A stretch of 47,655 nucleotides of DNA from Chitinophagaceae bacterium (GTDB lineage: Bacteria; Bacteroidota; Bacteroidia; Chitinophagales; Chitinophagaceae), in contig CANFHO010000007.1 of NCBI GenBank assembly GCA_947447005.1, positions 1 to 47,655 on the forward strand, in the 5' to 3' direction. A program made the translations under genes and the position numbers. The notes beneath the pieces are model-generated. The model saw only the letters and a program-made list of their open reading frames with translations. It was not told the origin of the DNA and ran no database searches. Shown piece by piece: positions 11,101-21,145 of this stretch (the first letter of the stretch is position 1; each line of letters starts with the position of its first letter).

Positions 11101-13174
11101 TGCCAGTTCCACCGGCTGGAACCAATCGCATTATTTTCAGTATTTGAAGGATAATTTTATAAACTACTATTTTGATAGTACAAGGATCGAGAAATTTTCG
11201 ATAAAAAAAAATGACTTTAGATATTTTACTGGGCTATATCCTGTTTCATTAAATTATGCCTATTCGAATCTTACTATTCTTACAAGTGGTGGTTGTGCAG
11301 AGTCTTTGGGCGCACTGGAGTTCTATATAATTAATCCTGAAAATAATTTGCCACTTGAAAATATACCTCGTGGAAGTGTGGGCAAATTTAATAGTATGAC
11401 ATCTTTTTGTAATACTACTCTAATGAGGAAATATCTTTTTTGGTATAAATATGATAATCCAGCTAGTCGGAAATACGCATATGATTTATTTGATTCTGTG
11501 TCTGTTGGTGCCACTGTTGTTATGAGTAGTTTTAATTTAGTAACAAATTCAAACCCTAATCTATTTATTAATGAATGGAAAAAAGATACATTAATCTATG
11601 GAGCTGGCAAGTCTCTTTACCATAGATTGAGATCAATTGGATTCAGTGGTATAGATTCATTTTATAGAAATATCCCAATACTTTTTGTTGCAAAGAAAAC
11701 TCGAAATGGGTGGACAGTAATTGAAGATAAAGTTGGAAATTCACAGACTGATATTTTGTCTACAAATTTTTCATATTACGGATTAGAAAGTAGAGGTGGT
11801 TATACTACCTCAATAATTGGACCTTCAAAATCATGGACATCTATTCACTGGAAAGGATTGTCACAAGAACTCAATTCAAAAGATGAAATAAACTATAAAG
11901 TCTTTGGGGTTAAGAATGATTTCACCGAAACCCTGATGTACTCCAGCACCGCGAAACAGAAAGATACTACCTTGTCTTTTGTAAGTGCATCTACTTATCC
12001 TTACTTGAAAATCTATCAGGAAAATACAGATACGCTCAACAATACACCCTGGCAAACAAAGTACCTGCAGGTCAAATACCAACTGGTTCCCGAAGGTGCC
12101 ATCACACCTGCCACCAATCTTGTTTTTAAGGACACCGTCGAAGTGGGTGAACCCATCAAAGTAAATATGGCTTTTAAAAATGTTACACCTGTTCCATTTG
12201 ATAGCATACGATTGTATATGACATCCACAGACCCATCTAACAATACAAAGGTCATTGTAGATGAAAATAAACGACCCATTACTGCGCAAGGGGATACAGT
12301 GTTGGTGAATTACAATATTGATACGAAAAATCTAGTAGGTGATAATTTAGTGAATATTACATTCAATCCCAATTATACACAACCTGAACAATACCTGTTT
12401 AATAATTTCATATCGAAGTCCATATATGTACGTCCAGATACCTATGCGCCCAATCTCGATGTAACTTTTGATGGTGTACATATCTTAAATAAGGATATTG
12501 TATCTCCTAAGCCAGTCATACTTGTGAAATTGAAAGATGACAGTCGTTTTCTTGCTTTGAATGATACCAGCCTGTTTTCTGTTAAACTCAGAATGCCCAA
12601 CGGACAAGTCAGAAACATTAAGTTTGACAGCGACACCTTATTGTTTACACCTTCTTCATTAACCCCTGGGGGAACTGATAATACTGCAATGGTAACTTAT
12701 AAGCCCTATTTGCCACTTGATGGAGAATATGAATTGATTGTTACAGGAAAAGATAGAAGCAACAATGCCTCCGGCGTATTTGAATACAGAGTTTTGTTTG
12801 AAGTATTCAATAAATCTATGATTACCAATTTATTGAACTATCCCAATCCATTTACAACAAGCACTTCTTTTGTCTTTACACTTACCGGATCTGAGCTACC
12901 AACAAATCTGCGCATACAAATCCTGACTGTATCTGGAAAGATTGTAAAAGAGATCAATAAGAATGAATTGGGCCCTATTCGCATTGGGAATAATATCACA
13001 GAATATAAATGGGATGGAACTGATCAGTTCGGTCAGCCCCTGGCAAATGGCGTGTATATTTACAGAGTGATTACTGATATCAATGGTAAGAAATTGGATA
13101 AACTTCGAAGTTCAGGATTTAATACTGATAAATATTTTCAAGGAGGTTATGGTAAAATGTATCTAATGCGATGA
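8111..13174 (+). CDS. Large C25-family (gingipain-like) cysteine peptidase, PorU2-type T9SS sortase-like protein with C-terminal sorting domain
   Basis: YFGHSSANSMEF (His) and PLFMANGCNAGNFF (Cys) C25-like motifs; C-terminal NYPNPF...WDGTDQFGQPLANGVYIYRV T9SS-type domain; adjacent porV-like gene. Confidence 0.8.
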   Translation: MKKRILQTIFLISLVVMAHVKADAQFNNEWIDFNKTYYKFSVGSNGLYRIPFGTLQAAGLSSTPAEQFQLWRNGKEVSIYTSIQSGMLSGSDYIEFYGLMNDGKPDAVLYKDPAFQLADKWSLQTDTSAYFLTINPAPNARLVNTSNNVSSNTLSPEPYFMYMLSKNYKDQINPGYASIVGIYVYSSSYDNGEGWTSRNVQSNSPIVDQYNDLYVSSGGPDASIRVTAFGNTLSTRKVQVSVNANVLIDQPMDYFSGADRLVSFPSSLLGRAIDTIRISNSTSVSTDRMVVGKYELKYPRTFNFGGNSIFEFSLPGTSVGNYLVITNFSAGTVAPILYDLSNGLRFIADITVTGKYRFLLPPGGNRDFVLMSNASSAIKTIDLLKQKKFIDFSVAANQANYLIVSHPSMSISNNGDALDKYKLYRSSNAGGSYKVKIYDIDELVDQFAFGIKKHPLSVKNFLSYARQFFAQTPQYALLIGKGITYDQYRLNESKAVTERINIVPTFGNPGSDNILASADLDATADISIGRLSATTGDEVLAYLDKVKEHDIVISSPSQTVKDKGWMKNFAHIVGGGDPYLQSVIDGYMSNARNIIEDTSYGAHVYTFNKLSAAAIEQVNSGLLSSLFSEGLGMVTYFGHSSANSMEFNLDDPSIFNNPGKYPLFMANGCNAGNFFIYDTLRATAGKKNIAENYVLIPSKGSIGFIASTHYGIVNYLNLYTYLFYSHMAKQDYRSGIGDLQRNVMQEMLAVGGSDDFYNVMTAEQMLLGGDPAVKLYAFDQADYAIEDPYIKISPTPLSVTNANFDLKVKYFNLGKAVNDSVHVRIKRELPDGSLITLFDQNRAPVHYADSINLSVPINPYTDKGQNKIIVSLDPDDVNQEITNNNNNITKSFPILEDDVRPVYPLNFAIVNSNAIKLTATTNNFLAVPKNFIVEVDTTELFNSPLKVTQTQSSIGGVIDFTPTIPFRDSTVFYWRVAKVPDTGIVNKWSYSSFVYIPASSTGWNQSHYFQYLKDNFINYYFDSTRIEKFSIKKNDFRYFTGLYPVSLNYAYSNLTILTSGGCAESLGALEFYIINPENNLPLENIPRGSVGKFNSMTSFCNTTLMRKYLFWYKYDNPASRKYAYDLFDSVSVGATVVMSSFNLVTNSNPNLFINEWKKDTLIYGAGKSLYHRLRSIGFSGIDSFYRNIPILFVAKKTRNGWTVIEDKVGNSQTDILSTNFSYYGLESRGGYTTSIIGPSKSWTSIHWKGLSQELNSKDEINYKVFGVKNDFTETLMYSSTAKQKDTTLSFVSASTYPYLKIYQENTDTLNNTPWQTKYLQVKYQLVPEGAITPATNLVFKDTVEVGEPIKVNMAFKNVTPVPFDSIRLYMTSTDPSNNTKVIVDENKRPITAQGDTVLVNYNIDTKNLVGDNLVNITFNPNYTQPEQYLFNNFISKSIYVRPDTYAPNLDVTFDGVHILNKDIVSPKPVILVKLKDDSRFLALNDTSLFSVKLRMPNGQVRNIKFDSDTLLFTPSSLTPGGTDNTAMVTYKPYLPLDGEYELIVTGKDRSNNASGVFEYRVLFEVFNKSMITNLLNYPNPFTTSTSFVFTLTGSELPTNLRIQILTVSGKIVKEINKNELGPIRIGNNITEYKWDGTDQFGQPLANGVYIYRVITDINGKKLDKLRSSGFNTDKYFQGGYGKMYLMR

Positions 13175-14358
13175 TGACGCACCAAGATATATCATCGACG
13201 GAGCTTCAACTTTTGTTGAGTAGCTGTAAAGAGTTGCTTTATCCAAATGCCAATCGTGGATTAGTTGAAACATTTTTAAGTAAAGTTGATTACAATAAAC
13301 TTTTAAGATTAATTAGAAGACATCAAATCGCTCCTGTTATTTATCAATCATTAAAAGATTTTGCGGATAAAATGAGCCCTGGTTTCAGCCATGAATTGAG
13401 GGGTGATATTCAGAGAATTCAACTAAAAGCACTTTCAACAAAAGCATTTTTATATGTTCTAAATAATAAATTAAAAGAGAAAGAGATTGAACTCTTTTTG
13501 TTAAAGGGAATTGCCCTTGCTGAAAAATATTATGGCGATATCGGATTGAGAGATGTCATGGACTTAGATTTGCTGGTTGAACCCCAAAATCTAGATACTG
13601 TCATACAGTTATTACAAGAACTGGGATACTCAATTTCTGGTGAGTATTCGACTTTTTCAAACAAGCAGAAGGAATTTGTAAAATATATAGACTATCATTT
13701 CGGGTTTTCAAAAATCAAGGAAGGACATCCCCGATATGTTGAATTGCATTGGGCTTTGAGAAACCGATTTGGGAATTTTGTCCTTGATCCTTTTATTTGC
13801 AAACAAGAAAAATCAACACAAAGTATCGTTAACCAAGAATACTTGTTAGAGCTTTCTGAAATCGATAACTTTCTTTTTTTATGCACGCATGGGGCAGAAC
13901 ATGCTTTTTATCGGTTGAAGTGGTTGGTTGACATTTACATGGTTTACAACAAAATTGACATTGATTTTAATGATTTGGTTGAGCGATCTATATCATTGCA
14001 ATGTTCTGAACAACTAGTACTATCTTTTAAGATGATGGAAATTTATTTTGCTATTCCAATCCCTGATCAGATACTTCAACTTTCAAAAAAATATAAAATC
14101 TCGCAGTGGCTTGTGAATTACTGTACTCATCAGATTATGTACAATGGTCAATATTGTGACTCTTTAGTAGAGAAAATGAGAAATTTGAGATTTTCATTTA
14201 TCATGAATAGAAAAGGTATTTTCAATAAGCGGTTATTTATGAGATACATGACCAGTCCCAAAGACTGGAGCATCTTGCCTTTGCCCAATTCATTGTTCTT
14301 TTTGTATTTCCCCCTGCGACCATTCCTGTTTTTATACAGAATACTTACTAGCTCCTAA
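13171..14358 (+). CDS. Nucleotidyltransferase family protein (NTP_transf_5-like), lasso-cluster tailoring candidate
   Basis: LFLLKGIALAEKYYGDIGLRDVMDLDLLVEPQNLD; ATGA overlap with the preceding porU2-like stop codon. Confidence 0.75.
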   Translation: MMTHQDISSTELQLLLSSCKELLYPNANRGLVETFLSKVDYNKLLRLIRRHQIAPVIYQSLKDFADKMSPGFSHELRGDIQRIQLKALSTKAFLYVLNNKLKEKEIELFLLKGIALAEKYYGDIGLRDVMDLDLLVEPQNLDTVIQLLQELGYSISGEYSTFSNKQKEFVKYIDYHFGFSKIKEGHPRYVELHWALRNRFGNFVLDPFICKQEKSTQSIVNQEYLLELSEIDNFLFLCTHGAEHAFYRLKWLVDIYMVYNKIDIDFNDLVERSISLQCSEQLVLSFKMMEIYFAIPIPDQILQLSKKYKISQWLVNYCTHQIMYNGQYCDSLVEKMRNLRFSFIMNRKGIFNKRLFMRYMTSPKDWSILPLPNSLFFLYFPLRPFLFLYRILTSS

Positions 14359-14371
14359 GTGTATTTAGTCG

Positions 14372-16150
14372 CTAAATTTTTTGTCTTGAGTATAATGCTT
14401 CAAATACCCCTCCATTATTGATCAGTTCATCAAATTTTCCATGTTCTTTGATCATCCCATTCTCCATCACATAAATATGATCTGTCATTTTCAGGTTGTA
14501 TAAGCGGTGTGAAACGAGTATCGTGATTTTGTCTTTACAATGCTCTTTCAGGTTATCGTATAAAGTCTGTTCAGAAATGGCATCCAATGCACTACTGGGC
14601 TCATCCAATACAACCAATTGAGATTGGCGATAGAATATTCGACTCAATGCCAGTTTCTGCCATTCTCCTCCACTTAACTGCTCACGACTTTGAAAAATAT
14701 GGCCAAGCCTTGTGTCGTACCCATTCGCTAATTTATCAATGAATTCATGTGCACCTGATTTTTTTGCAGCATCGGATATACTCGTATGATTAACTTTCGT
14801 CGACAGTAATTCGAAATGAATATTCTCATTGACTTTTAAAAAGTATTTTTCAAAGTCCTGGAAAAAGATTGCACTATTTTCAAACAGTGTCTGATTAGGA
14901 ATATTGCGACTTGATATATCATTGAAATAGATTTCACCTTGGTTTGCTTCATACATTCCAGTGATGAGTTTTACCAGGGTTGATTTTCCTGAGCCGTTTT
15001 CTCCTACGATGGCAATCACCTCACCTTTTTTTGCTTTGATGTTAATGTCCTGCAAAGTATTATCTGCTTTTCCTGGATAATGAAAGCTGAGATTTTTTAT
15101 TTCGAGGGAATGTAGATTCTGAGGGAAAGATGTTAATGTCGAAGCCTCTATTTCAGGATCTTTTATTTTCAAAAAAGCAAAAAGATCTCGGAAGAAGATC
15201 CGTAATTGAAACACTTGTAAAAACGATTGAAAAAATGTAGTGGAGACAGTTTGTAGTCGCTGTATTCCCTGCAGGTAAATAATAAAAAATCCGATGGTGA
15301 TTTCTTTTTGATAAGCCGATCTGGCCAAATACGTCAATGCAGTACTGAAAACAAGTATTTCCAATGCTTCTGCAAGGATATTTTTTTTTAAGCTAATGGA
15401 TTGAAGTTTATTTTTTTCGTCAACAATCCAGGATCGAATTGCTTTGAATGTTTGAAGAAAATTATGTCCAAATCCATACACCCTGAGCTCTTTTGCATAC
15501 TGAAACCCTGTCAACAATTGAAATATATACCCAGCTTCTCTTTCCTTGTTCACCAATTTAAATTCAAGGTCTGTCGCTTTCTTTGCCAACATCCATTTAT
15601 GAATAGCCGCAGGAATGGCAAAAAACATAAGTATGAGAAAAAAATAGGAATGCAGTGTGATGAAAAAAGCACACAATAAGAAAACGGAGATAAGGCTTGA
15701 AATCGTTCCGTTCAAAGCCGGAATCAATTGTGCAGTTCTGTACAGCGCCTGTTGTTGAGCGAGATGCAAGGTTTTATGGAAATGCGGGTCTTCGTAATAA
15801 GGATATGAAACCCTACCTGCTTTTTCAATTACTTGAAAGGAAAAATGGTCAGCCACTTTCAGTTGAAAACGGGTTGTAATATGGTCGCCCACCAATTGAC
15901 TGGCTGTTGCAAAGAGTAGGGATGCAGCCAGAATTCCCATCATGACGATAATCTGCTGAAATGTAGATGGATGAACTGTAAAGGCGTCAATAATTTGTTT
16001 GGTTTGGTAAATCGCAATCAGTGGCATGATGGATGAAATCAGCCTGATTCCCAGGATGCCTATCGACATGGAAGGGTCAATCTTCCACACGGACGTAAGC
16101 ACGTTTGCCATTTCTTTGATGCCTTTTCTCCAATTCATTAGCAGCTTCAT
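14372..16150 (-). CDS. ABC transporter, fused permease/ATPase (lasso peptide exporter candidate, D)
   Basis: Walker A VGENGSGKSTL, LSGGEWQKLALSRIFY signature, VLDEPSSALD Walker B, SHRLYN; N-terminal TM domain; ATG at 16150 (MKLLMNWRKG) avoids overlap with the divergent gene. Confidence 0.82.
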   Translation of the reverse strand: MKLLMNWRKGIKEMANVLTSVWKIDPSMSIGILGIRLISSIMPLIAIYQTKQIIDAFTVHPSTFQQIIVMMGILAASLLFATASQLVGDHITTRFQLKVADHFSFQVIEKAGRVSYPYYEDPHFHKTLHLAQQQALYRTAQLIPALNGTISSLISVFLLCAFFITLHSYFFLILMFFAIPAAIHKWMLAKKATDLEFKLVNKEREAGYIFQLLTGFQYAKELRVYGFGHNFLQTFKAIRSWIVDEKNKLQSISLKKNILAEALEILVFSTALTYLARSAYQKEITIGFFIIYLQGIQRLQTVSTTFFQSFLQVFQLRIFFRDLFAFLKIKDPEIEASTLTSFPQNLHSLEIKNLSFHYPGKADNTLQDINIKAKKGEVIAIVGENGSGKSTLVKLITGMYEANQGEIYFNDISSRNIPNQTLFENSAIFFQDFEKYFLKVNENIHFELLSTKVNHTSISDAAKKSGAHEFIDKLANGYDTRLGHIFQSREQLSGGEWQKLALSRIFYRQSQLVVLDEPSSALDAISEQTLYDNLKEHCKDKITILVSHRLYNLKMTDHIYVMENGMIKEHGKFDELINNGGVFEALYSRQKI

Positions 16151-16203
16151 TTGTACCTTGATGCGTTGGGTTGTATATTTACGTCTAAAGGTACTCAAAA
16201 CAG

Positions 16204-17109
16204 GTGTATTATTATTGGGCATATGGACTTACAATTGCGTCTGGAATTGAATTTCCTGAATTGTTTCCTATTGCATACACTGAAACAGTCGATGTTACGT
16301 TGGAATATGGGGTAGTGCCACCAAAAATTGAAGCCTCAACTGGATATGCCTCTGATTCCATCAGTATTTCTCCCATTGAGTATCTGTTGCATGTACAAAA
16401 AGTGGCGTCCTATTATGTATCTGATGGGAAAAAAATTGTGATACAATCGCTGGAAGATGCAGATGATACCAGTATCCGATTGTTTTGTTTGTCTAATGCG
16501 TTTGCCGCATTGCTGCATCAACGAGGTTCCATTCCGTTGCATTGTTCCGCTTTCATAGATCAGGAGCAATTGGTCTTGATTATGGGAGATTCTGGGGCAG
16601 GAAAATCGACTACTTTGGCCGCGATGGTCCAGGCAGGATATACCCCTTTTTCAGATGATGTCTGTGTGCCCTTGTGGGAAAAAGAACAAAAAAGGCTGAA
16701 TATGGTCAGTTCCTATCCGATGATGAAATATTGGGGCGACACATTTAAATTGATCAATTTGGGTGAAAGTGATCGTAAGATTCGGCCAGAGATTGATAAA
16801 TATGGGGTATATTTTCACGATCAGTTTATTTTGGACCCCATGCCCGTGAAAATGGTCATCATTTTAGAGAAAGATCCAGTGGCAGAAGGTGTTGTTGTCA
16901 AAAAATTAACAGGGGTGGATCTGTTTCAGCGTCTGGAACGTAATGCTTATAGAGGAGAGTATCTGGGGTATTCAGGATTGCAAAAAGAGCATTTCAAGCT
17001 TTTTGCTGGCATAGCCAATGCAACCAAAGCGTTTCTCATCAAACGTCCAGGGGTAGGAGATAGTATATTGGGAATGCAAAAAACTATTTTAGAATTATTG
17101 TCAATATAA
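16204..17109 (+). CDS. HPr kinase/phosphorylase-like protein (lasso peptide kinase candidate)
   Basis: LVLIMGDSGAGKSTTLAAMVQAGYTPFSDDVCV: P-loop plus downstream SDD typical of HprK-like proteins; GTG start giving YYYWAYGLTIASGIEFPEL. Confidence 0.8.
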   Translation: MYYYWAYGLTIASGIEFPELFPIAYTETVDVTLEYGVVPPKIEASTGYASDSISISPIEYLLHVQKVASYYVSDGKKIVIQSLEDADDTSIRLFCLSNAFAALLHQRGSIPLHCSAFIDQEQLVLIMGDSGAGKSTTLAAMVQAGYTPFSDDVCVPLWEKEQKRLNMVSSYPMMKYWGDTFKLINLGESDRKIRPEIDKYGVYFHDQFILDPMPVKMVIILEKDPVAEGVVVKKLTGVDLFQRLERNAYRGEYLGYSGLQKEHFKLFAGIANATKAFLIKRPGVGDSILGMQKTILELLSI

Positions 17110-17145
17110 GAACGGTAAGCATAATTTTACAGCATAGCTAACTTT

Positions 17146-17421
17146 ATGACAGAACAAATTAGGTATTTACAAAACAAGGAAATCATACAATCAAAGATTG
17201 GAGAAGAAGTGGTCATGTTGGATGTGGAAAGTGGATTTTATTTTGGGTTGAATTCGGTGGCCTCCATCATTTGGAGTCTGCTAGAGAAAGAAATTGCATT
17301 TGATGAATTGATCAGTCAGTTGATGTCGCAGTTTGAGGTCGAACGAGCATTGTGCGAGCAGGACACACAGGAGTTGTTGGATCAACTACTTGAAAAAAAT
17401 ATCATTCGTATTGCATCATGA
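17146..17421 (+). CDS. PqqD-like RiPP recognition element protein (lasso B1)
   Basis: 91 aa; VVMLDVESGFYFGLNSVASIIWSLLEKEIAFDELISQLMSQFEVE is a PqqD-family pattern. Confidence 0.85.
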   Translation: MTEQIRYLQNKEIIQSKIGEEVVMLDVESGFYFGLNSVASIIWSLLEKEIAFDELISQLMSQFEVERALCEQDTQELLDQLLEKNIIRIAS

Positions 17422-17828
17422 AAGTATATTCTTTCAGGGAGTATAGCTGTTTTCTCGAAGCGTGGGTTCTTTTGCATCTCATGAAAGGGGTAATCCTTTT
17501 TGTGCCATTTAAAAAGATCGCTTCTAAGATTGGCACAATCCAAAAAGAATCAGATCATCAGATTGTGGAATCCAAGGAGCTTGACATGGTTTGGAGATCC
17601 ATTCACCGGGCCAACAGATTTACAATTCACAAGAGTGTATGTTATGATCAGGCTTTAACTGCAAAGCTGATGTTGAAAAGAAGGGGAATAGTCTCTACCT
17701 TGTATTTCGGATTATCCAAAGATGAAAAGGAACAGATGATTGCACATTCCTGGGTTCGATGTGGAAACAAGATAGTTACTGGAAAATCAGGGATGGAGCG
17801 TTTTACGGTGGTGGCTTCTTTTACATAA
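17418..17828 (+). CDS. Lasso peptide biosynthesis B2 protein (transglutaminase-like leader peptidase)
   Basis: NRFTIHKSVCYDQALTAKLMLKRRGIVSTLYFGLSK...IAHSWVRCGNKIVTG: Cys and His motifs of B2; ATGA overlap with B1. Confidence 0.85.
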   Translation: MKVYSFREYSCFLEAWVLLHLMKGVILFVPFKKIASKIGTIQKESDHQIVESKELDMVWRSIHRANRFTIHKSVCYDQALTAKLMLKRRGIVSTLYFGLSKDEKEQMIAHSWVRCGNKIVTGKSGMERFTVVASFT

Positions 17829-17849
17829 ATCAAATAATTACATCATACC

Positions 17850-19835
17850 ATGAGCGGATTTTGGGGAATTTTCAGACCAGATGGTGGTCAGGTCGATATG
17901 GAGGCTTTCAATCAGATGTGTAAAGCATCTGAAAGGGATGGCTTTGATGGCATGGAAACCCATGTGGAGGATGGCATAGCGATGGGGCATCTCATGTTAA
18001 GGGTGTCACCAGAATCGCAGTATGATAAGCAACCTTTGAAAAGCGATTGTGGAAATTATCTATTGGTAGGGCATTTTCGGTTGGATTATCGTGATGAGTT
18101 AGGTGACAAGTTGGGTTTAACTCAATCTGAGCTGGAAAAAACACCAGACTCTCGTTTGGCAATGATGGCTTACATCAAATGGAAAGAAAAATGTGTTCAT
18201 CATCTTGAGGGAGACTGGGTGTTTTGTTTATATGAAAGCATTAGAAATAAGCTGTTTATCTTAAAAGATTCAATAGGAGTATCCGCATTATTTTATTTTA
18301 CTTTTAATGAGCAGTATTATTTTAGCACTAGTTTAGATGTTTTTATTAATAATACTAATTTTAATTTAAAATTTGACTTTGTTGAGTTGCATAGATTGAA
18401 GCTGAGGATGCTTCCATCAAATCTAGGGAGAACAATTATTAAAGATGTTTATTGTTTAAAAAATGGACATGCTGTTTCGATTGATAGTGATAAAAAATTG
18501 GTCGAGGTAAATTACTTTAATAAAATCCATGATTTAAGATTAGAGTACAGTCATATTTTAGATTATATTCTGGATTTTAAAATATTATTTTTTTTAGCAG
18601 TTAAAAGTAGGATGCTAAAAGATAATTCAATTGGGATTTTTTTGAGTAGCGGACTAGACTCCACAGCAACAACTTGTATGCTATCGAAGCAGTTGCCTTT
18701 TACAAAAAGCAAGTTATTTTCGTTTACTTCATTTCCCTATTATTTAAAAAATATTCCTCAGAAGTATCATAGCAAAGTAGATGAATCTCCTTTGGTTGAT
18801 GCTTTTTCTAAATCCTTTCCTGAAATTAATTTTTCATTTTTGAATTTTGAAAATGAAAAATTAAGTGCCTTGTTTAGCAACTCTAATGTGATTGATTATT
18901 TTGATCCTAGATTACATCAAAATACTTTTTGGATTCATGGTATTTTAAGAGAAGCAAAATCTAAGAAAATAAAAAGAGTTTTTAATGGGCAAATGGGGAA
19001 TTTTACTTTGACATGGGCGGGTGCAAACTTGAATTTTGAATTATTTAAATCCTTTAAGTTTAAAAGTTTATATAAAAACCTTAAACAAATTTCAGTGCTT
19101 GAAAACAAAACAATTTTATCGATAATTAAAGTTGATATCTTGAAAAAGATTTTCTATTTTTTAAAGCCACTTAATTCATTTGAAACCCCAAGTTGTTTTT
19201 TAGAAGTGTCAACAATCCTAATGTCGAAAAGCAAGTATAATTTATTGAAAAAAGAATCCAGAAGGAAGCTTAAAAACAATCTAATTTCAAATTCATTATC
19301 GTCAAGAGTTAATTCAGTAACTTATAGCATGGATTATCTTTCTATTAAATGGTATCTGCAAAGTCATAACTATTCTTTAGAAAGTGTGGATCCCACGATA
19401 GATAAACGGTTTTTAAATTATTGTTTGAGGATTCCCAATTATCTATTTAATTACAAAGGAGAGAAAAAATATATTTTTAGAATTGCATTTCAAAAGTTGT
19501 TGCCTGATCTAATTCTAAATCAAAAAAATAAAAAATCCCAGTCTGTTGATATCGGGGATAGAATAATTAGGGATGATCATTTTTTTGAATTATTAAATAA
19601 AGTTGCACAAGGTTTAAAAGATCATCCGTATATTAAATTGAATGATTCTATATTTACACAATTTGAAAAAATGAGTTCTAGTAGAATCTATTATAAAAAG
19701 CAGTTAATTGCAAATGAGATTCTTATGGAATTATCGCTAACAAATTTTTTATTTGAAAATTTAAATATGTTTCCTAATTTTGAAAAAAAAGTTTATAATG
19801 GAAACAACTTTCCTCGAAGCTTGGATAAAGCCTGA
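17850..19835 (+). CDS. Asparagine synthase-like lasso cyclase (C)
   Basis: MSGFWGIF...HLEGDWVFCLYE N-terminal AsnB-like domain with Ser instead of nucleophilic Cys2; IGIFLSSGLDSTATTCML ATP-PPase motif. Confidence 0.85.
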   Translation: MSGFWGIFRPDGGQVDMEAFNQMCKASERDGFDGMETHVEDGIAMGHLMLRVSPESQYDKQPLKSDCGNYLLVGHFRLDYRDELGDKLGLTQSELEKTPDSRLAMMAYIKWKEKCVHHLEGDWVFCLYESIRNKLFILKDSIGVSALFYFTFNEQYYFSTSLDVFINNTNFNLKFDFVELHRLKLRMLPSNLGRTIIKDVYCLKNGHAVSIDSDKKLVEVNYFNKIHDLRLEYSHILDYILDFKILFFLAVKSRMLKDNSIGIFLSSGLDSTATTCMLSKQLPFTKSKLFSFTSFPYYLKNIPQKYHSKVDESPLVDAFSKSFPEINFSFLNFENEKLSALFSNSNVIDYFDPRLHQNTFWIHGILREAKSKKIKRVFNGQMGNFTLTWAGANLNFELFKSFKFKSLYKNLKQISVLENKTILSIIKVDILKKIFYFLKPLNSFETPSCFLEVSTILMSKSKYNLLKKESRRKLKNNLISNSLSSRVNSVTYSMDYLSIKWYLQSHNYSLESVDPTIDKRFLNYCLRIPNYLFNYKGEKKYIFRIAFQKLLPDLILNQKNKKSQSVDIGDRIIRDDHFFELLNKVAQGLKDHPYIKLNDSIFTQFEKMSSSRIYYKKQLIANEILMELSLTNFLFENLNMFPNFEKKVYNGNNFPRSLDKA

Positions 19836-19926
19836 AATGATCCAGTTAGATACAATGTCTACTAATGACGTTGGTAAAAATGGTTTGACTGTAGATTGTT
19901 CAAATTGTACTGCTACATATTCATAA
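19798..19926 (+). CDS. Candidate lasso precursor peptide (A), 42 aa
   Basis: Translated by hand: METTFLEAWIKPEMIQLDTMSTNDVGKNGLTVDCSNCTATYS; WxxPxM leader motif (variant of YxxPxL), Gly26 with Asp8-of-core, C-terminal Ser; overlaps cyclase 3' end by 38 nt in another frame; too short for the ORF track. Confidence 0.7.
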   Translation: METTFLEAWIKPEMIQLDTMSTNDVGKNGLTVDCSNCTATYS

Positions 19927-19948
19927 TCAATAATTCGAATTTTTCCCT

Positions 19949-19956
19949 TACCTTTG
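19949..19956 (+). promoter_or_regulatory. Putative -7 element (TACCTTTG) of rpsU
   Basis: TAnnTTTG match 25 bp upstream of the rpsU ATG. Confidence 0.55.
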
Positions 19957-19980
19957 CACTCCCAAAAACAAAATTGATAT

Positions 19981-20175
19981 ATGTTAATCATCGATTCTAA
20001 AGATTGCGAAAACATCGACAAGGCTCTCAAGAAGTACAAGAAGAAGTTTGAAAAAGCTAAAATTTTGTTGCAACTCCGTGAGCGTCAATCATTTACCAAG
20101 CCTTCTATCAAGCGTAGGGGCGAAGTGTTGAAAGCAATCTACAAGCAGAAGATCTTCAACGGAGAAATCGAATAG
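19981..20175 (+). CDS. rpsU: 30S ribosomal protein bS21
   Basis: 64 aa MLIIDSKDCENIDKALKKYKKKFEKAKILLQLRERQSFTKPSIKRR. Confidence 0.93.
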   Translation: MLIIDSKDCENIDKALKKYKKKFEKAKILLQLRERQSFTKPSIKRRGEVLKAIYKQKIFNGEIE

Positions 20176-20227
20176 TCTGATCTGTTTAAACTAATTATAC
20201 CAAGTAGTCATATGGTTTTGTAACTTT

Positions 20228-21145
20228 ATGACTACTTTTTTTATGCCCCAAACTCCCCATATTGCGATCATTTCTTTCATCGATCATATCAAGTTCGAGA
20301 AACGGTTTTCTGCCCATACCATAAGAGCATATACGGATGACTTGAATGATTTTTTCGATTTTTTGAAGTCTCAGTTTGAAGTGGAGCATGCAGCAGAAGT
20401 AAACACCCCCATGATCCGCAGCTGGATGGCAGCTTTGTCGCATGCGGAAGTCCAGTCACGAAGTATCAACCGTAAAATCTCCTCATTGAAGTCCTTTTTC
20501 AAGTTTTCTATGGTCCAGGGACTGGTGTCAGTCAATCCTGCCAAGGGAATTACCGTGATGAAGGTCCGGAAAAGATTACCCAATTATGTGGATGAAGCAC
20601 AAATGGAGACACTTTTTACGGCGGTTCAGTTTCCGGAAGGATTTGAGGGTATAACGGACAGGGTTATTCTTTCTCTTTTATATCAAACCGGCATGCGCGT
20701 AAGTGAGCTGGTAAGCTTGAAGGAAGGGCAAATGGATAGGGGAGGAAAGCATATAAAGGTGTTGGGGAAGGGTAATAAAGAGCGCATTATCCCGGTTGGG
20801 GTTGAACTTCTGAAGATGATCGACATCTACATACAGGCAAAAAAAGAACAATTTGGGGGCTTAGAACTAACACATTTATTGGTTACTCCCAAGGGGAAGC
20901 CCCATACATCCAGATCTGTGTATGATGTGGTAAAAAAATATCTTTCTTTGGTGACAACTGCAGAGAAGAAGAGTCCACACGTATTGCGTCATAGTTTTGC
21001 CACACATCTTACTTCAAATGGTGCAGAGCTCAATGCGGTTAAAGAATTGCTTGGGCACAGCAGTTTGGCAGCTACCCAGGTGTATACCCATAATAGCATC
21101 GAGCGGTTAAGAGATATACACAAGAAGGCCCATCCCAAAGGATGA
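20228..21145 (+). CDS. Tyrosine recombinase XerC/XerD
   Basis: LLYQTGMRVSELVSLK, LGKGNKERIIPV, HVLRHSFATHLTSNGAELNAVKELLGHSSLAATQVYTH: complete R-K-HxxR-H-Y set. Confidence 0.93.
   Translation: MTTFFMPQTPHIAIISFIDHIKFEKRFSAHTIRAYTDDLNDFFDFLKSQFEVEHAAEVNTPMIRSWMAALSHAEVQSRSINRKISSLKSFFKFSMVQGLVSVNPAKGITVMKVRKRLPNYVDEAQMETLFTAVQFPEGFEGITDRVILSLLYQTGMRVSELVSLKEGQMDRGGKHIKVLGKGNKERIIPVGVELLKMIDIYIQAKKEQFGGLELTHLLVTPKGKPHTSRSVYDVVKKYLSLVTTAEKKSPHVLRHSFATHLTSNGAELNAVKELLGHSSLAATQVYTHNSIERLRDIHKKAHPKG

Follow-up and report, generated by a model that had tools for sequence, protein, structure and literature searches.

A 42-codon reading frame at the 3' end of a cyclase gene almost certainly encodes the precursor for the B1-B2-cyclase-kinase-nucleotidyltransferase cluster beside it. 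The best explanation of the whole, which we hold with moderate confidence, is that lasso-type machinery would close a lactam between the side chains of Lys27 and Asp33 of this peptide; we infer every chemical step, and any threading, from the sequences. The window, i.e., the whole stretch of DNA analysed (47,655 nt of Chitinophagaceae bacterium, assembly GCA_947447005.1, contig CANFHO010000007.1, positions 1 to 47,655 of the forward strand), carries the genes in the order N-D-K-B1-B2-C-A. They are flanked by rpsU and, on the 5' side, by a gene whose product ends in GYGKMYLMR, presumably porU. The features are as follows.

13171 to 14358, + strand: N, nucleotidyltransferase of the NTP_transf_5 family (PF14907, 1.6e-48), syntenic in relatives
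14372 to 16222, - strand: D, export ABC transporter of the MsbA/NHLM type (domain match; syntenic), divergent to K
16204 to 17109, + strand: K, HprK-like kinase, H..GxGKS..DD residues present
17146 to 17421, + strand: B1, PqqD-like RRE (PF05402, 2.7e-18), similar to 9x90 (PbaB1) and 5v1u (TbiB1)
17418 to 17828, + strand: B2, transglutaminase-like leader peptidase (PF13471, 5.7e-21; NF033537, 6.9e-23, exceeding the cut-off)
17850 to 19835, + strand: C, Asn-synthetase-like cyclase with clade-specific GQxGN and Lys540; Ser2, without a Cys2 nucleophile
19798 to 19926, + strand: A, precursor peptide gene, 42 codons and stop (from sequence and syntenic conservation)
19798 to 19866, + strand: leader M1-N23, with W9 (19822), P12 (19831), M14 (19837), L17 (19846) and T22 (19861)
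19867 to 19923, + strand: predicted core D24-S42, DVGKNGLTVDCSNCTATYS (from the W+15 register, the purely synonymous codon changes in G013-group cores and the control set)
19876 to 19896, + strand: predicted Lys-Asp isopeptide pair K-x5-D, K27 (19876-19878) to D33 (19894-19896)
19897 to 19908, + strand: C34 and C37, predicted disulfide, from two Cys conserved in the cores
19921 to 19923, + strand: Ser42, predicted target of the HprK-like kinase
19981 to 20175: rpsU, followed by xerC

The same gene set is found in phosphorylated lasso clusters of the paeninodin/pseudomycoidin type (PMC9266682). The enzymes and leader expected for lasso biosynthesis are all present: a discrete RRE, a B2 peptidase with intact catalytic Cys and His motifs, a cyclase and a W-x-x-P leader. 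The likeness to the paeninodin and pseudomycoidin systems (PadeA/PadeK; PsmK/PsmN) further includes the W-15 and Thr-2 positions, the split B1/B2, the HprK-like kinase, the C-terminal Ser, the nucleotidyltransferase and the MsbA-like exporter. The system differs from them in having its precursor 3' of the cyclase, a GQxGN cyclase motif, no above-chance acid at core positions 7-9, a single Lys with an Asp at +6 or +7, and usually two Cys. We thus speak of lasso-type machinery, as read from the genes, and withhold the name "lasso peptide" until a product is seen. In three members of the genus (G032, G003, G018), the GYGKMYLMR gene is joined to rpsU by 715-850 nt with no cluster between them, which places the cluster borders at about 13171 and 19926. 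No RNA family was found by Rfam in positions 17000-20700.

The precursor frame runs from the ATG at 19798 to the stop at 19924-19926 and encodes METTFLEAWIKPEMIQLDTMSTNDVGKNGLTVDCSNCTATYS. Its 5' end shares 38 nt with the 3' end of the cyclase gene, which is read in a different frame, and a TAnnTTTG-like rpsU -7 element lies about 22 nt 3' of its stop. The first-pass annotation had described this frame as a lasso precursor candidate overlapping the cyclase 3' end; its coordinates and frame are confirmed, and its role as cluster precursor is borne out by the relatives, i.e., clusters that adjoin rpsU in many genomes of the genus to which the window belongs (MAGs of freshwater Chitinophagaceae). 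A homologous frame, following or overlapping the cyclase gene, lies between cyclase and rpsU in every one of the 14 related clusters whose cyclase is complete; G030, with a cyclase divided between two contigs, has one too. This is the conservation downstream of related cyclases that the annotation had proposed looking for. A precursor between B2 and C or elsewhere was considered and rejected: no small frame is conserved there, and a profile of the family matches the window's own genome once, at this frame. An alignment of 14 rows shows invariant M, W, P, L and T, in the pattern W-x2-P-x4-L-x4-T, with few other fixed positions. The paeninodin-family precursor model NF033524 recognises relatives barely under its cut-off (7e-5 and 2e-4; at best 22.5 bits against a cut-off of 27), so that the family fails it, and it does not match the window precursor. 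Searches outside the genus returned no convincing further members, and no additional precursors were found upstream of rpsU in other members of the genus.

The boundary between leader and core can be read from the leader motif. Leaders of the Y type have their Tyr at -17 (PMC10368454), and the W-type leader PbaA, for which the complex with the RRE has been solved, has W-15, P-12, L-10 and L-7 (PMC13381572). W9, P12, M14 and L17 fit the W-type spacing with a core starting at D24 and T22 at -2, and a Thr at W+13 is invariant in the clade. W9/P12/M14/L17 is thus the predicted RRE-binding motif, and the conserved T22, in this register, is the -2 Thr. The annotation had rightly picked W9-x-x-P12-x-M14 as the leader motif, of which W and P are invariant in the clade, but its count of 17 residues placed the core start at Gly26, two residues too far, and its apparent anomaly of an Asp at -2 instead of Thr vanishes in the W-15 register.

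The codons of the G013 group (G013, G023, G024, G021, G039) agree with D24. The leaders of these five precursors differ at many amino acids and have Ser or Thr at W+14. The 20 residues that follow, from W+15 to the C-terminus, do not vary at all, despite nearly saturated synonymous sites; between G024 and G023 this part has 11 synonymous and no non-synonymous differences. Since the frozen part begins at W+15, the simplest reading is that the mature peptide starts there, and we place the predicted boundary at D24, with D24-S42 as the putative core. As controls we used 15 precursors found beside cyclases of other Chitinophagaceae lasso clusters, in all of which the core begins at W+15 or W+16 and has an acidic residue at positions 7-9. 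This set was not blind: the core was read from W+16 when the -2 residue stood at W+14, and the W-type L084, L089 and L094, which break the W+15 rule, were left out together with the Y-type L098, so that the figure becomes 15/18 once the three W-type precursors count as failures. These three make up a group in which an Asp at W+19 is conserved. Short lasso precursors stand beside cyclases in many other Chitinophagaceae genomes (L074-L108), some with Ile or Val at -2 and with first residues other than Gly (Phe, Ser, Thr). These resemble the present family in their W-x-x-P motif, their core mostly at W+15/W+16, their mostly C-terminal Ser and their frequent position downstream of the cyclase; they differ in that most have an acid at 7-9 and in that their W-type controls lack Cys. 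Attempts to set the core register from acid positions relative to the Thr gave no offset clearly above chance (best 9/12, P about 0.09).

The acid that would close a canonical N-terminal ring is no more frequent in these cores than by chance. An Asp or Glu occurs at core positions 7-9 in 5 of 12 clade cores, which is the chance level, shuffles averaging 4.5. All 15 controls have one (Fisher p 9e-4, or p 0.045 with the control figure of 15/18). In the window core, the Asp is at position 10, outside the 7-9 range of an N-terminal lactam. It is highly improbable that D24 itself closes such a lactam with a larger or variable ring, of 10 residues in the window: the core does start at D24 with D33 as its tenth residue, and fusilassin tolerates engineered rings of 7-10 residues (PMC13352647), but in relatives the Asp moves between core positions 7 and 20 while its distance from the Lys stays fixed. 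The Gly-Asp8 pattern of the first-pass annotation is weak by itself, since 36% of shuffled versions of the window peptide contain a Gly with an acid at 7-9. Across the clade, the pattern of any Gly with an acid 7-9 residues later was also rejected (9/12 cores against 6.8 in shuffles, P 0.13).

What the cores share is a Lys-Asp pair. All 15 contain a single Lys, followed by an Asp at a distance of six or seven residues (K-x5/6-D), at core positions K4-D10 in the window, K10-D16 in G012, K9-D16 in G004, K13-D20 in G011, K7-D14 in G027, K8-D14 in G017, K2-D9 in G009, K6-D12 in G038, K8-D14 in G008, K6-D12 in G025, G030 and G037, K10-D16 in G001, K1-D7 in the G013 group and K3-D9 in a second locus of G023. 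Shuffled cores give a mean of 2.4, none of 20,000 shuffles reaches 15, and the pattern ranks first in an unbiased scan of all residue pairs and spacings. When only nine roughly independent cores are kept (one of the G-K-x5-D subfamily), the probability is about 5e-8, or 2e-4 after some 4800 tests; the pattern was spotted by inspecting the cores, several of which are related, and the correction for tests is approximate. K-x5/6-D is present in 1 of the 15 control cores. Out-of-sample members were searched for, and none was found. Such a constant distance between Lys and Asp suggests the Lys side chain as the source of the attacking amine in this clade. The computed rings have 26 atoms for K-x5-D and 29 for K-x6-D, and canonical lasso rings of 7-9 residues span 22-29. 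In the G013 group, the Lys is core residue 1, and its alpha and epsilon amines are indistinguishable in this respect.

That position of the Lys, directly after the T-x cleavage site, is also what one would expect if the peptides were trimmed further, down to the Lys, whose alpha-amine would then close an ordinary lasso ring of seven or eight residues with the Asp (K27-D33); K-x5-D and K-x6-D correspond to exactly these ring sizes, both known in lasso peptides. We consider this unlikely. The spacer between the T-x site and the Lys varies from 0 to 12 residues without a common protease motif or a Thr two residues before the Lys, a second peptidase is not seen in the cluster, and trimming would discard one of the two Cys in 11 of the 15 cores. 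The model of the first-pass annotation, with a leader M1-V25, a core G26-S42 and a canonical Gly1-Asp8 macrolactam, draws on the Gly that adjoins the conserved Lys, and G-K-x5-D is indeed also found in G017, G008, G025, G030 and G037. It has nevertheless become very unlikely: it requires W at -17, when W-type leaders have W-15 (PMC13381572) and most controls start at W+15/16, it takes the -2 place from T22, and it leaves the G013-group cores frozen from two residues too early. Moreover, the Gly before the Lys is absent in 9 of the 15 cores, and the Lys in none. Of that macrolactam, D33 as the ring acid is probably right and the Gly26 amine probably wrong, since the Gly-Asp pair is not conserved.

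In addition to the Lys-Asp pair, exactly two Cys are present in 14 of the 15 cores, including each of the 12 compared with controls; the W-type control cores have none. In 11 of the 15, one Cys precedes the Lys and the other follows the Asp, and in the window both follow the Asp. Class III/IV lasso peptides are not known to have a Lys-Asp pair or a C-terminal kinase target. They do share with this family a single disulfide from two Cys (BI-32169, pandonodin; classes as in PMC13352647), and differ from it by their N-terminal lactam.

The cyclases of the clade differ as well. The window cyclase matches NF033535 at 2e-65, below the cut-off of the model, with SSGLDS intact. In the clade, GxGGD has become GQxGN, with N for D in 14 of 14 cyclases (D in 13 of 14 controls) and K for R in 13 of 14 (R in 14 of 14 controls), SxGxDS and the other synthetase residues are intact in 14 of 14, and a branch with 100/100 support separates clade from control cyclases. 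The altered motifs could fit a changed nucleophile, without demonstrating one. A search of the PDB with the cyclase returned only distant Asn synthetases and one hydroxyamidotransferase, and an AlphaFold2 model built from 8 sequences had a pLDDT of 50 and was not used.

Two genomes carry the precursor without its cluster. G021 and G039 have a common deletion junction, and the cluster is lost save for a 3' scrap of the cyclase gene; the orphan precursors lie at L129:7242-7400 (-) and L130:7940-8110 (-). The rest of these genomes yielded neither B2 nor cyclase under the thresholds applied, nor B1 in a search at 1e-5. From Trp to the end, the two precursors have identical amino acids and differ by synonymous changes only, and they seem, from these codons, to have been kept under selection after the loss of the cluster. 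Maturation in trans is possible, the genomes being incomplete (87% and 84%); a reading centred on the cyclase does not explain these orphans. Such apparent selection without a cyclase, together with the change of GD to GN, the lack of an acid in the canonical register and the two Cys in nearly all cores, would suit a peptide without any lactam, linear, disulfide-closed and phosphorylated at its C-terminus, if the altered cyclase were inactive. We regard this as quite unlikely, given that SxGxDS and its companion residues persist in every one of the 14 cyclases and that it leaves the fixed Lys-Asp spacing unexplained. Such a product would resemble the linear polyphosphorylated peptides (LPP), whose clusters also combine an RRE, an HprK kinase, an NTP transferase and an MsbA-like exporter, but lack a cyclase and use a Y-type leader and an SpI-like peptidase (PMC13381572). 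Two other loci hold related remnants or variants. On contig C240 of G023 (L134:3719-4260 (+)), a B2-like gene is followed directly by a precursor, without a cyclase between them, whose core HFKLLYLLDEQGFS has K-x5-D and no Cys. In G016 (L131:7170-7610 (+)), the cluster is lost, and a decayed relative of the G001 precursor remains beside rpsU.

The kinase suggests a role for the other end of the core. PadeK and PsmK phosphorylate a C-terminal Ser (PMC9266682), and, as in the paeninodin group, the C-terminal residue is Ser in all intact members of the family and the kinase residues (H..GKS..DD) are intact, which probably points to phosphorylation of Ser42. The RRE departs from that group: B1 (17146-17421) has Asn in place of Gly42 of PbaB1, the Gly of paeninodin RREs, and Asp in place of Gln79 (alignment read with PMC13381572). 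In Bacillota, Asn and Asp at these positions mark Y-binding RREs, yet the precursor here has a Trp (PMC13381572).

In the favoured pathway, B1 would bind the leader through W9/P12/M14, the HprK-like kinase would phosphorylate Ser42, which the nucleotidyltransferase may elaborate further, and B2 would cleave after T22-N23 to free D24-S42. Lasso cyclases adenylate an Asp or Glu side chain, which an amine then attacks. Here C would adenylate Asp33, and the side-chain amine of Lys27, not the N-terminus, would close a 26-atom lactam; the two Cys would probably pair as a disulfide, and the ABC transporter would export the product. We give even odds to the broader proposition that the clade has switched nucleophile from the N-terminus to the Lys side chain and makes internal Lys-Asp lactams, a new RiPP linkage produced by lasso machinery. 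The products are possibly threaded lariats with tails at both ends, pinned by the disulfide and capped by phospho-Ser. A limited literature search found no earlier case in which a lasso-cyclase homologue uses a Lys side chain, nor Lys-Asp lactams made by Asn-synthetase-like enzymes. Side-chain-to-side-chain rings are known from graspetides (macrolactams/macrolactones), which are made by ATP-grasp ligases; none was found among the cluster proteins scanned. In known lasso peptides the ring is closed at the N-terminus, so that the leader has to come off before cyclisation. If the pathway is right, a natural family of lasso-cyclase type using a Lys side chain would break this rule, would explain cores scored as non-lasso by rule-based mining and would provide a new tool for peptide cyclisation. 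The claim is testable because the clade supplies about 15 natural precursors with both the x5 and x6 spacings and highly variable sequences.

The cyclase gene itself is divided in its conservation. Among 8 clade members (window 17850-19926, L029-L040), residues 1-120 are about 80% identical, identity beyond residue 125 is 15-43%, and GC falls there from about 42% to 27-35%. The synthetase domain and the precursor resemble a cassette that diversifies jointly, and is perhaps exchanged, with the conserved GATase part on one side and rpsU on the other. In G025 (L068:1141-3279 (-), the same as L042:4472-6610 (-)), cyclase and precursor lie in one frame of 712 aa with no intervening stop, which is either a natural fusion or an assembly error.
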